DNA of 64,000 nucleotides from Weissella muntiaci (GTDB lineage Bacteria; Bacillota; Bacilli; Lactobacillales; Lactobacillaceae), in contig NZ_SDGZ01000010.1 in NCBI RefSeq assembly GCF_008107635.1, positions 1 to 64,000 on the forward strand. The letters are read 5' to 3'. How positions within the stretch are numbered: position 1 is the first letter of the stretch; the number at the start of each line of letters is the position of its first letter. Positions 1-3,643 of this stretch are shown one piece after another. A model generated the notes under the pieces. That model did no database searches and was not told the origin of the DNA. It saw only the letters and a list, made by a program, of their open reading frames with translations. A program made the translations under genes and the position numbers.

Positions 1-324
1 AACTTCAATGAAATACTTACGAATTTCAGCTCCTTTTGAAGTCCCTGACATTAAGGCAATGTGCTTTGCCATATCCATAGTCATCAGGTAATCTTCAAGT
101 GTTTGCAACTTATCTGGTGCTGATTGATTATAGGGTGTGGTTACGTCCACGCCCTCAAAATCAGTACCTTTAACAAACATTTTCGAGTTCGACCTAAACC
201 AATCACTAAATCTGTAAGATCGCTTAACTTCCAAAGACTTGTACAATTCACGAGCGCTTACTCGTTTTTCATCGCCCTCCTGCTTAACCAAGCCATCTGA
301 CTGTGTTAGAATTAAATCATTCAT
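1..324 (-). CDS. Phage antirepressor, AntA/AntB type (partial, runs off window)
   Basis: About 108 codons are visible on the minus strand and the frame is still open at base 1, so the C-terminus lies outside the window. The reading frame starts at an ATG at 322-324 preceded by a GAAAGGA ribosome binding site. The core, with VSARELYKSL, FSDWFR, an acidic stretch and LTMDMAKHIA-like wording (DYLMTMDMAKHIALMSGT), is the pattern of the AntA/AntB family that phages use to lift repression. It sits downstream of the Cro-like gene on the same strand, as an early lytic-side gene would. The role (inactivating the CI-like repressor at 946-1302) is inferred from family and position. Confidence 0.8.
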   Translation of the reverse strand, partial: MNDLILTQSDGLVKQEGDEKRVSARELYKSLEVKRSYRFSDWFRSNSKMFVKGTDFEGVDVTTPYNQSAPDKLQTLEDYLMTMDMAKHIALMSGTSKGAEIRKYFIEV

Positions 325-369
325 ACGAATGTCCTTTCTGCGATGTCCTACCATCGCATGAGATTATTT

Positions 370-503: not shown

Positions 504-710
504 TCAAATTACCTCTAAACTATCTCTCAACAAGACATCAACTTTCACATTCAGCTCATCCGCTACCAGTTTTAAATTACGCACATTTGGCGCATAATCA
601 TTCCACTTGCTGATAGAACCGTTTGATAGTCCGACTGTTCTTTCTAATTCTGCAATGGATTTAACACCACGTTTTGTAGCTATCAACTTAATGTTGTCGT
701 AAATCGCCAA
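504..710 (-). CDS. Cro-like XRE-family DNA-binding protein
   Basis: This 68-residue protein is almost entirely one helix-turn-helix domain. The SIAELERTVGLSNGSISKW stretch is the recognition helix region, and a second helix pair ends in VDVLL. It starts at a TTG (708-710) with an AAGGAG ribosome binding site about ten bases upstream. The HTH closely resembles that of the divergent CI-like protein (shared SIA-LER, SNG-I-KW, VD-LL pattern), so both probably read the same TTCTAT operators. It is probably made from the leftward promoter at 895-923, which gives a leader of about 175 bases. Lytic-side (Cro) assignment rests on its size, on lacking a C-terminal extension and on being upstream of the antirepressor. 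Confidence 0.75.
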   Translation of the reverse strand: MAIYDNIKLIATKRGVKSIAELERTVGLSNGSISKWNDYAPNVRNLKLVADELNVKVDVLLRDSLEVI

Positions 711-735: not shown

Positions 736-764
736 TTGACAGTAAATAGAATATATTCTATCAT
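736..764 (+). promoter_or_regulatory. Rightward sigma-A promoter of the phage switch
   Basis: TTGACA at 736-741 and TATCAT at 759-764 are separated by exactly 17 bases, and predicted start is near 771. It points at the CI-like gene, giving a leader of about 175 bases. Its spacer and -10 are covered by the palindrome at 746-761. Confidence 0.6.
746..761. promoter_or_regulatory. Operator-like palindrome O1
   Basis: ATAGAATATATTCTAT is a perfect 16-bp palindrome made of two TTCTAT half-sites. It overlaps the spacer and -10 of the rightward promoter, so a bound dimer would block it. Confidence 0.6.
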
Positions 765-890
765 TAGTACATAGTTAAATAGGGCTATATATATTATATT
801 CGAACATCGATTCCGATGATAAATACCTATAATAAGCCAATTGACTGTACTCGTTGCTCTGCGTTTTATTGTTGTACCCCTAAGTACATA

Positions 891-905
891 TTCTATAATA
901 TAGAA
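891..905. promoter_or_regulatory. Operator-like palindrome O2
   Basis: TTCTATAATATAGAA is a perfect 7-1-7 palindrome using the same TTCTAT half-site as O1. It covers the -10 of the leftward promoter at 895-923. Confidence 0.6.
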
Positions 906-923
906 CGCAAATCTAAAAGTCAA
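895..923 (-). promoter_or_regulatory. Leftward sigma-A promoter of the phage switch
   Basis: On the minus strand TTGACT (918-923) and TATTAT (895-900) have a 17-base spacer, with predicted start near 888. It faces the rightward promoter at 736-764 across about 115 bases between start points and would drive the Cro-like gene and the antirepressor. Confidence 0.6.
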
Positions 924-930
924 CGTTTTA

Positions 931-947
931 TTCTATTTTTATTCTAT
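931..947. promoter_or_regulatory. Two directly repeated operator half-sites at the repressor start codon
   Basis: TTCTAT occurs at 931-936 and again at 942-947, where it runs into the ATG of the CI-like gene. They are direct repeats, not a palindrome, so this would be a weaker or half-occupied site used for autoregulation. This is inference from the shared half-site. Confidence 0.35.
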
Positions 948-1302
948 GAACCCTAAACAAAGAGTCAAAGAACTTCTTTTAAACCCGATAGATTGGGAAG
1001 TTAGATCAATCGCTGCGTTAGAAAGAAAATTGGATATTTCGAACGGAACTATTAACAAGTGGGACCGTGTTGCACCTTCATATGCGTACGCACAGAGTGT
1101 AGCAAATTATTTTGGTGTATCGGTAGATTACCTATTAGGAAATGCAGACGAAAAAAAGCCGACACAAACTGAGCCGACTGAAAAAGATTTGGAGGATGCA
1201 TTTATTGGTGCGGAAGCATATGACGGCAAGCCGATTACTGATCACGATAAAGAGGTAATCAAGGCCTTGATTAAGGGCTATTTGGATACTAAGGAAGGTT
1301 AG
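946..1302 (+). CDS. CI-like phage repressor (XRE family)
   Basis: The 118-residue protein has an N-terminal helix-turn-helix (residues about 15-62, with SIAALERKLDISNG and INKW) and an acidic C-terminal tail of about 50 residues that is too short for an S24 self-cleaving domain. Such truncated repressors are typically paired with an ImmA-type protease, which is the next gene ten bases downstream. There is no Shine-Dalgarno sequence before the ATG at 946: the upstream bases are T-rich and contain operator half-sites. Alignment with the Cro-like paralogue supports this start. Translation may therefore be leaderless or initiated unusually. Confidence 0.75.
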   Translation: MNPKQRVKELLLNPIDWEVRSIAALERKLDISNGTINKWDRVAPSYAYAQSVANYFGVSVDYLLGNADEKKPTQTEPTEKDLEDAFIGAEAYDGKPITDHDKEVIKALIKGYLDTKEG

Positions 1303-1311
1303 ATACTTTAT

Positions 1312-1743
1312 ATGCATTACTTAGATATTGTTAAAAGTACCGGCATTCCTTTGATTTGGTCAGACGAACCGATAGCCTCAAAAGGCCTTTACTTGCCTAA
1401 TGCTAAAATGATTAGTCCTGTTGGTGCGCTATTCGTCCAATCTGATCTATCTGAATCCGAAATAGAAAATGTTGTTTTGCACGAACTCGGACACAAAATC
1501 GATGGCGATATCCTAACCCGTTTAAGTGCGCCACAATTGCATATTATTAATGAATCTAAGGCTAATCGTTTTATGATCCATAAAAAAGCGTCAGAATGGA
1601 TAAATGGTTTTGAAGGTAATTATCCCAATTCGTTAGATGTAGTTGTATTTCTCAAATGGGCTCACTTGCCTTTAAAGCTATATGCAATTGCCGAAGATGA
1701 AATTAAAGATCTGGTTACTCCCAGCGTAGGGAGTTTTCTTTAA
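1312..1743 (+). CDS. ImmA/IrrE-family metalloprotease
   Basis: The 143-residue protein carries the zinc motif HELGH near residue 63, followed about 35 residues later by an NESKANRFM helix whose glutamate is the expected third ligand. This is the arrangement of the ImmA/IrrE (Peptidase_M78) family, whose characterised members cleave an HTH repressor encoded next door after DNA damage. The gene follows the CI-like repressor with a gap of nine bases and is probably co-transcribed with it. Substrate (the CI-like protein) is inferred from position. Confidence 0.85.
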   Translation: MHYLDIVKSTGIPLIWSDEPIASKGLYLPNAKMISPVGALFVQSDLSESEIENVVLHELGHKIDGDILTRLSAPQLHIINESKANRFMIHKKASEWINGFEGNYPNSLDVVVFLKWAHLPLKLYAIAEDEIKDLVTPSVGSFL

Positions 1744-1852
1744 AGTATTCATGTGATTTATTAGACAAAAATAATCATCTGTTTAATTACTCAACCTTTA
1801 TAAAAATATACGTGCAATAATGATCCACGTTAAAAGCTTAGGAGTATTGGAA

Positions 1853-2407
1853 ATGGCGAAACAAAGCACTGAAAATGTTGAGCGTTTGCGAGAAATAGAA
1901 AATCAGATGGACAGAGCTGGGGTCTCCGATCTATTTGGTACAAAAAAAGAAGTAAAAGCACTCCCAACTATTTTAGACGTAGAAGAGACTATCATTTACG
2001 CCACGTCCGGAATAGTTGGAACCGGAACCGTGTTAGTTGTTGTAACTGATAAACGACTTTTATTCGTTGACCGCGGTTTGATTTACGGCACCAATTTCCG
2101 TGAGATTCCTTTCTCAAAAATTAATGCAGTAAACTATTCTACTAGATTACTTTTAGCTGACATCAGCATAGACAACGGAGCCAACACTACGAAAATAGAC
2201 AATGTGAATAAAAAAACCGCACCAATTTTTGTCGATAAGCTTAAGGGTGCCATCGCTTCGTTCCAAGACAATGCTAACAGTCCAGTAAATGCTTCATCTA
2301 GTAATTCACTTGCTGATGAACTCACTAAACTATCTGGTTTAAAAGATGCTGGTATTCTAACCGAAGATGAATTTAATCAGCAAAAAGCTAAATTACTAAA
2401 TAACTAA
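1853..2407 (+). CDS. PH-like and SHOCT domain protein in the lysogeny module
   Basis: The start is placed at ATG 1853 because AGGAG lies eight bases upstream; an ATG at 1820 has no such site. Residues about 30-145 look like a bacterial pleckstrin-homology domain of the YokE type (short beta strands with VLVVVTDKRLLFVDRG and a second strand-rich half). The last 32 residues, with LADELTKLSGLKDAGILTEDEF, match the SHOCT oligomerisation motif. Proteins of this make-up often sit between repressor and integrase in Lactobacillales prophages. No enzymatic function is indicated. A superinfection-exclusion or membrane role is possible but unsupported here. Confidence 0.7.
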   Translation: MAKQSTENVERLREIENQMDRAGVSDLFGTKKEVKALPTILDVEETIIYATSGIVGTGTVLVVVTDKRLLFVDRGLIYGTNFREIPFSKINAVNYSTRLLLADISIDNGANTTKIDNVNKKTAPIFVDKLKGAIASFQDNANSPVNASSSNSLADELTKLSGLKDAGILTEDEFNQQKAKLLNN

Positions 2408-2497
2408 GGGGTGGCAAATCACCACCTCCCTACTTTCTGACTTACTCAAATAGTCATACATAATTCGATGAGGGTCGATATTATGAAAGGCAAGATT

Positions 2498-3643
2498 ATG
2501 AGTATCAAGAAACAAAAAAACGGCAACTACCAAGTAAGAGTGCAATTCACTGACTCACTAGGTAGACGCCGTAATAAAAAGAAAACTGTTGCATCCCTAA
2601 CTCTGGCCAAACGAGCTGAGCGGGAAATTTTAAACGAAGTTGATGCTGGCACATTCAACAAGGTTCATAAAAAGATCACGATGAATGAACTAATTGATAA
2701 GTTCATGCTTGATTATAGCCGAGGTAAACGTAAGGTTACAATAGGTCGGGTCAATAGATTTTTTGAATTGTATGTTTTAACCAATGAATGGTTTAATCAT
2801 GTACAGATTTCAAAAATTGACCGCCCTATTGTTCAAGCTTGGATAGATGAACTTGCTAATAAGCAATCTACCTATAAATCAAACGCTTCTCAATTAAAGC
2901 GTGTATTTGATTTTGCTGTATCTTATGAATACATTGACTCGAATCCATTTGAAAGAGTTCATTATCCAACACCTATTGACAAGCCGAATCGATCTTATCG
3001 AGTTGAAAATTATGATTATGACCAACTTCAAGCATTTATTCATGCTGTGGAAAATAAATTCGCTAAACCAAATCTAGATTATAGAAAATATGTGTATTTG
3101 AGATTGCTCGCTTTTACCGGCATGCGTAGTGGTGAAGCTACAGTTCTTCTATGGTCTGATATTGAGTTCACTGATAGTGGTACAAATATTACCATATCAA
3201 AAACTTTGAGTCGTTACAGAGGGCAAAATTTCAGTATAAATCCTCCTAAAACCGAGGCTGGTAAAAGAGTAGTTATGGTAGACGAGATAACAGCAAGGAC
3301 ATTAAAGACGTGGCGTAATATACAACAACAAGCGTTTATGGCCTCTGGTGTCCGTTCTGACATCGTTTTTACAAGTAAAGACCTTGTCTCATATACAACG
3401 CACTCTTTACCCAGAACATGGTTGTTGTCTGCTATTAAAGGCACAGATATTCCTCAAACCAATATACACGGGCTAAGACATACTTATATAACCTTAGCAG
3501 TTCAAGCAGGCATGGATATTAAAACACTACAAGCCCAAGTCGGACACGATGATATAAACACTACATTAGGCGTTTATGCATCAGTTACAAAAGACATGCG
3601 GGCAAAGACTGTAGATGTATTTACGTCCCTAGTCAATTTTTAA
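2498..3643 (+). CDS. int: Tyrosine integrase of the prophage
   Basis: It catalyses site-specific integration and excision of the phage genome. The N-terminal 60 residues form an arm-binding domain (IKKQKNGNYQVRVQF then basic residues), residues about 65-160 the SAM-like core-binding domain, and the rest the catalytic domain. The catalytic set is visible: R in TGMRSGEA, H and R in HGLRHTYI, H in VGHDDINT and the nucleophile Y in LGVYASV. The start at 2498 (AAAGG seven bases upstream) gives the usual N-terminus; ATG 2483 with GAGGG upstream is an alternative, and 2468 is less likely. The gene ends about 145 bases from the presumed attachment core, the usual position. Confidence 0.93.
   Translation: MSIKKQKNGNYQVRVQFTDSLGRRRNKKKTVASLTLAKRAEREILNEVDAGTFNKVHKKITMNELIDKFMLDYSRGKRKVTIGRVNRFFELYVLTNEWFNHVQISKIDRPIVQAWIDELANKQSTYKSNASQLKRVFDFAVSYEYIDSNPFERVHYPTPIDKPNRSYRVENYDYDQLQAFIHAVENKFAKPNLDYRKYVYLRLLAFTGMRSGEATVLLWSDIEFTDSGTNITISKTLSRYRGQNFSINPPKTEAGKRVVMVDEITARTLKTWRNIQQQAFMASGVRSDIVFTSKDLVSYTTHSLPRTWLLSAIKGTDIPQTNIHGLRHTYITLAVQAGMDIKTLQAQVGHDDINTTLGVYASVTKDMRAKTVDVFTSLVNF

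Follow-up and report, generated by a model that had tools for sequence, protein, structure and literature searches.

The left end of the window, by which we mean the whole 64,000-nucleotide stretch analysed here, carries a prophage lysogeny module in which a cro-like and a cI-like gene diverge from a 235-bp intergenic region (711-945; Table 1). The two encoded regulators share 45% identical residues over 51 positions of the HTH region and are, on this comparison, paralogues, a relationship also reflected in a 63-nt inverted repeat in the DNA. In the CI-like protein no peptidase domain was found, Pfam giving only the HTH match in a chain of 118 residues, so that the self-cleaving C-terminal part of lambda-type repressors is missing from it. 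Instead, an HExxH metalloprotease gene lies beside the peptidase-less repressor, as in ImmR/ImmA-type modules; its product carries the sequence HELGH and matches a phage profile, and a Pfam search of it gave no match. A profile search with the CI family returned the Xre-family regulator of ICEBs1 and SinR chains in PDB. Phage records matching positions 500-1750 at the DNA level were not found, and a search of 400-1100 against Rfam gave no RNA family up to E = 5.

Table 1. Features of the lysogeny module, in window coordinates
Feature	Position	Strand	Description
AntA-type antirepressor gene	1-354	-	truncated at contig end; Pfam and profile match
Cro-like HTH gene	504-710	-	68 aa, TTG start; HTH_3 match below Pfam's cut-off; paralogue of the CI-like protein
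P_cI	736-764	+	-35 TTGACA 736-741, 17 bp, -10 TATCAT 759-764; expected start about 771; same position in relatives
Operator in P_cI	746-761		perfect 16-bp palindrome ATAGAATATATTCTAT; core TAGA-N6-TCTA 747-760, in the register common to relatives
Conserved cI leader start	770-781	+	CATAGTTAAATA; motif common to relatives
Doubly transcribed stretch, predicted	771-888	both	leaders complementary over about 118 nt, given both expected starts
5'-terminal hairpin of cro leader, predicted	873-888	-	UGUACUUAGGGGUACA
Palindrome over P_cro -10	891-905		perfect, 15 bp, TTCTATAATATAGAA; half-site order reverse of 746-761
P_cro	895-923	-	-35 TTGACT 923-918, 17 bp, -10 TATTAT 900-895; expected start about 888; same position in relatives
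Candidate operator in P_cro spacer	901-915		TAGAACGCAAATCTA; imperfect, one base longer; register of relatives
Candidate third operator region	922-947		direct TTCTAT half-sites 931-936 and 942-947, over cI leader and start codon
CI-like repressor gene	946-1302	+	118 aa; HTH domain (HTH_3, below Pfam's cut-off) and short C-terminal part
ImmA-like metalloprotease gene	1312-1743	+	HELGH motif; phrog_87 metallo-protease match
PH/SHOCT-domain protein gene	1820-2407		between ImmA-like gene and integrase
Phage integrase gene	2468-3643	+	Pfam match

A sequence-only reading of this DNA had proposed two near-consensus promoters pointing at each other between the two genes, and both were found as given. 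P_cI adjoins cro and reads towards cI, P_cro adjoins cI and reads towards cro, and the expected starts lie about 117 bp apart. Scored with our own sigma-A matrix, they are the top rightward (12.9 bits) and leftward (11.6 bits) matches between the genes; among 2000 dinucleotide shuffles the rightward score was reached in 2, the leftward score in 25 and both in 1. The promoter observation is thus confirmed at the level of motif and score. As judged from the coordinates of the expected starts, the cI leader would measure about 175 nt, the cro leader about 178 nt and their overlap about 118 nt, close to the 175 and 115 nt estimated before. A second leftward promoter-like site (968-941, TTGACT-16-TAGAAT, 11.4 bits) overlaps the start of cI. 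It contains one copy of a 21-nt direct repeat, 903-923 recurring at 948-968.

The layout was followed through related loci. Searches with CI and with Cro as query supplied some (among the matches listed), a DNA pattern modelled on P_cI others, and 15 phage regions were added, picked from records counted at 326 and 95. The 244 loci contained 203 CI-type HTH genes of 90-170 aa, 88 of them with distinct upstream DNA. The limit for 'distinct' (0.75), that for a strong promoter (10.5 bits) and the simple sigma-A matrix, with its base frequencies, were our own choices. A strong promoter towards cI was present in 72 of the 88 relatives and one away from cI in 67. Wherever both were strong (58/88), they faced each other (58/58), with starts 38 to 166 bp apart (median 100). 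In the remaining 30 loci P_cro (14), P_cI (9) or both (7) fell under the 10.5-bit limit. Shuffled regions, ten per region, contained both promoters in 2 of 880 cases. The DNA pattern had supplied 19 loci, which are circular evidence for P_cI and include two of the 58 (L165 and L174); once pattern-derived loci were dropped, two strong facing promoters were seen in 56 of 85 distinct loci. Restricting the set to loci with an HTH-type Cro left 14 pairs, and the top-scoring promoters faced each other in 13 of them. The exception, L105, had two weak promoters, and a later scan of a longer stretch gave a strong P_cI and no strong P_cro. As controls, TP901-1 and lambda were read as back to back; in P2 and 186 the lytic promoters were found and the weak lysogenic ones missed, and a weak promoter elsewhere in the window would therefore escape as well. 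Among the resolved cases of this small-CI family, facing promoters are the rule as far as promoter motifs tell: lytic and lysogenic promoters converge between divergent genes, as in P2 and 186, and do not lie back to back as in lambda and TP901-1.

Two side observations concern this layout. In genome G000, contigs C2, C7, C5 and C8 (L001-L004) carry four CI-family switches of common geometry, with P_cI starting at -175 to -192 and P_cro at -58 to -95 relative to the repressor start, some of them under the limit; other contigs of G000 hold further CI-like matches. In L040 a hairpin noticed by eye (CGTTTAT..ATAAACG, with TTTTTT behind it as read towards cI) lies between the facing promoters and could be an attenuator.

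Half-sites of the type TTCTAT/ATAGAA are enriched in the intergenic region of the window: six occur in 711-945, where 0.5 are expected, and a seventh (942-947) overlaps the ATG of cI. Perfect palindromes with arms of at least 7 bases were seen twice or more in 0.6% of Markov versions of the region and once or more in 9%. The two palindromes proposed to cover the -10 boxes are both perfect, but the one in P_cI spans only three -10 bases (759-761), and the half-site order is opposite, ATAGAA..TTCTAT in 746-761 and TTCTAT..ATAGAA in 891-905. Because of this opposite order they are not copies of one dimer site, and the idea that 891-905 repeats 746-761 was rejected. The register of the family points to 901-915 as candidate operator in the P_cro spacer, imperfect as it is too. 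Likewise, the half-site pair said to abut the repressor start is present, but as a direct repeat whose second member overlaps the ATG. Compared with the P_cI operator, the window's candidate sites agree at 8 (P_cro) and 9 (third site) of 14 positions. Foreign operators did as well at these sites in 34 and 22 of 57 cases; by this measure neither match is better than chance. Within the window, the P_cI operator alone is clear by its sequence; matching operators, which had been claimed for the window itself, appear in the family instead.

Across the 58 resolved switches the P_cI spacer scored 10.6 against its own P_cro spacer and 6.0 against those of others, and 10.5 against its own cI leader and 7.0 against others; neither of the two own-switch values was reached in 5000 permutations. 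In 18 of the 58 switches the own P_cro spacer ranked first and in 35 it was among the top three; in some it ranked low. The leader comparison used the 55 bases before cI, which may include the P_cro spacer where this is close, as in the window. A later analysis separated the P_cro region from the third-site region and counted a match at 10 or more of 14 bases. Both the P_cro site and the third site matched the P_cI operator in 43 of the 58 switches, in 35 of these at a distance of 29-33 bp. When operators were dealt to other switches (200 shuffles), the corresponding means were 5.5 and 3.8 and the maxima 13 and 12. Palindromy of the P_cro spacers is barely above chance (5.9 versus 5.5). Judged by these comparisons, operators in the family are alike across P_cI and P_cro and are regularly spaced. 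As 29-33 bp is about three helical turns, the spacing suggests cooperative binding of the P_cro and third sites on one face of the DNA.

A second prophage region of the same genome (contig C7, locus L006) is 98.9% identical to the window over 328-420 and 93% over 1117-1865, and blastn between the two gave no match from 420 to 1117, between these near-identical flanks. The part that differs is thus one block, made up of cro, the intergenic DNA and the DNA-binding portion of cI. The L006 block, scored as L002, has a strong P_cI at -192; the P_cro facing it, at -95, is weaker and with 9.7 bits falls below the limit. By this alignment, immunity specificity has been exchanged naturally between two prophages that share a genome; that the block changed as a whole is in keeping with operators matched to their own regulators. 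The two contigs share their first 21 bases, so the assembly probably broke at a repeat.

Both leaders begin with fixed elements. At the predicted P_cI start the relatives share the motif YATAG-(1-2 bases)-AAATAAGC, which was defined after the alignment had been inspected. Its loose form was present at 49/70 P_cI starts, at 0/65 P_cro starts and, among further strong promoters of these loci, at 2/50; the strict form gave 25/70, 0/65 and 0/50. The copy at 770-781 is the sole match in the 64 kb, yet 8 of 100 shuffles also contain one. A search of viral contigs that used the motif plus a bare -10 frame and no protein similarity retrieved 52 stretches, 20 of them distinct. A CI-family HTH gene lay 147-255 bp downstream in 16 of these 20 and an opposing promoter of at least 10.5 bits was present in 15. 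Six of the 20 were already in the locus set; among the other 14, a CI-family gene was found in 11. The leader start could thus serve as a DNA signature for finding such switches without protein similarity. A start codon within the motif on the lytic strand was considered and dropped, the needed base being C in 65% of cases. In the literature searched we found no tested function for the motif.

On the opposite strand, the cro leaders of switches with an HTH-type Cro start with a predicted hairpin in 18 of 21 cases (15 with at least 5 pairs), compared with 26% of shuffles, at mean energies of -4.6 versus -1.4 kcal/mol. The excess is weaker in switches with other partners (27/58 versus 32%; -2.0 versus -0.85 kcal/mol). 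These hairpins vary in sequence and loop length; they were tabulated directly because MAFFT failed to line up the arms of the short leaders, the alignment leaving out 4 of the 21 loci (L019, L137, L184 and L241). The conserved cI leader start and the 5' hairpin of cro leaders with an HTH-type Cro are new here. As both elements sit fixed at the start of a leader, a role in promoter escape, RNA stability or RNA pairing is suggested. Where the partner is no HTH_3 paralogue (e.g. L058, L067, L093 and L139), the cro-side leader often starts with GTAAGCTAA..AGCTAA, and TTAGCTAA-like stretches recur directly upstream of the P_cI -35 in some such loci; both are perhaps sites of the other regulator.

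The same DNA can be read in other ways. In a back-to-back switch, cI would be transcribed from the -10 TATAAT at 894-899 (+) and cro from TTAACT-17-TATATT at 778-750 (-), and the facing pair would be due to chance or minor. Such candidates do exist in the window (8.0 and 8.3 bits), and their -10 boxes, too, lie under the palindromes, but both candidates score far below the facing pair. Moreover, the relatives carry a strong promoter at the back-to-back position in only 1 of 88 cases next to cI (null 2/440) and 1 of 72 next to cro (null 0/72), which is near background; we rejected this reading as highly improbable. The rightward promoter might instead mainly produce a separate RNA antisense to the cro leader, with cI expressed from another promoter, for example one used only upon infection. 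The conserved leader start would suit an RNA with a role of its own, and the convergent promoter of the enterococcal plasmid pCF10 yields such an antisense RNA (PMC6540685). Since 764-946 showed no terminator-like site and the relatives conserve no further rightward promoter beside cI, we regard this, too, as quite unlikely.

A more serious alternative accepts the layout as real and takes collision and RNA pairing to be irrelevant: operator binding alone would run the switch, and facing promoters would be a way of fitting in three operators. Operators inside both promoters could indeed suffice. On the other side stand the long overlap, kept throughout the 58 resolved switches, and the conserved elements that start both leaders, whose roles are putative. 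We consider this version a real possibility, somewhat short of even odds. A prophage lysis-lysogeny switch built on two facing sigma-A promoters, as originally proposed, is the best reading of the locus, with a probability of roughly 0.8, and its layout recurs in the relatives.

From the promoters, their layout, its conservation and, in the family, the matching and spacing of operators, all read from the DNA, we infer how this facing-promoter switch might work. In the family, CI would recognise sites that resemble one another, one in each promoter and another in the cI leader, some three turns of the helix upstream of the one in P_cro. By pairing on these last two, it would turn lytic transcription off. 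The cI transcript starts far upstream and would have to cross CI-bound sites, so that it might be tempered by a roadblock, and at high levels CI would shut its own promoter via the site inside P_cI. The Cro-like paralogue would compete for the sites of CI. Polymerases from each promoter would run over the other and cause interference, while leaders complementary over about 118 nt might exert an antisense effect; the two states may hinder one another via interference, antisense RNA or both. As CI has only 118 residues, without a peptidase domain, and its gene precedes an ImmA-like one, loss of CI through proteolysis or the antirepressor is likelier than self-cleavage, and the ImmA-like protease or the antirepressor would probably be the route of induction. 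This reasoning draws on what is generally known of ICEBs1 and on the profile match of the CI family to the ICEBs1 regulator and SinR.

Going further, these loci may represent a large class of Firmicute phage switches in which convergent promoters and exclusion at the RNA level are at the core of the decision and the leader elements are working parts, a proposal that we put forward tentatively and with more doubt than belief. If it were true, polymerase collision and some 100 nt of complementary leader would add bistability to repression by CI and Cro, and both leader elements would govern promoter escape, RNA pairing or how long the RNAs last.

No description of a lysis-lysogeny switch with facing promoters in a phage of Firmicutes turned up in the literature searched, which included few subscription journals and none of the older studies of phages phiadh and mv4. 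Promoters of phiadh were reportedly mapped by Engel et al. in 1998, and phage mv4 of Lactobacillus is said to have been studied by Coddeville et al. in 2007. The rad/tec region of the Lactobacillus gasseri phage phiadh resembles the window in several respects: Rad has 108 residues and a sequence similar by eye to the CI-like protein, and a strong promoter points away from rad at -78 and a weak one towards it at -161. In contrast to the window, its intergenic region measures 436 bp and its rightward -35 is weak. Regulators of the ICEBs1/SinR type match the CI family profile, and the ImmA-like gene after cI adds to the likeness, but ICEBs1 is a conjugative element and the window holds a prophage.

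TP901-1 and lambda share with the window divergent repressor and anti-repressor or cro genes with operators around the promoters, but their promoters lie back to back, as the scan finds for both and as PMC7250872 states for TP901-1. The notion that Firmicute phages mostly follow this arrangement holds for TP901-1, the characterised switch considered here, and fails for the small-CI family, whose promoters, where resolved, face each other. If the facing layout is a family rule, dormancy and waking need another model, with long leaders, a cI gene whose transcription crosses sites bound by its own product, and RNA pairing as a possibility.

The known analogues of the layout, by comparison, are P2/186 and pCF10. 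In pCF10, prgX and prgQ of Enterococcus likewise set a repressor against the operon it represses by convergent promoters (PMC6540685), but this switch has another kind of regulator and governs conjugation under pheromone control. The likeness to coliphages P2 and 186 suggested at the outset is supported by annotated records and by PMC7498355: there, too, the lytic promoter and the lysogenic one converge in the space between diverging genes. The promoters of P2 and 186 are 40-60 bp apart (PMC7498355), compared with about 117 bp in the window, whose overlap is about twice as long. Their second regulator, Cox or Apl, has sites of its own, whereas the window encodes an HTH_3 paralogue of CI, and in the family of the window, unlike in P2 and 186, operators resemble each other across both promoters. 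Finally, pL of 186 is weak and is inhibited by pR through transcriptional interference, with no effect in the reverse direction (PMC7498355), whereas both promoters of the window are near consensus. With this family, the role of convergent transcription becomes testable beyond P2-like phages and pCF10.
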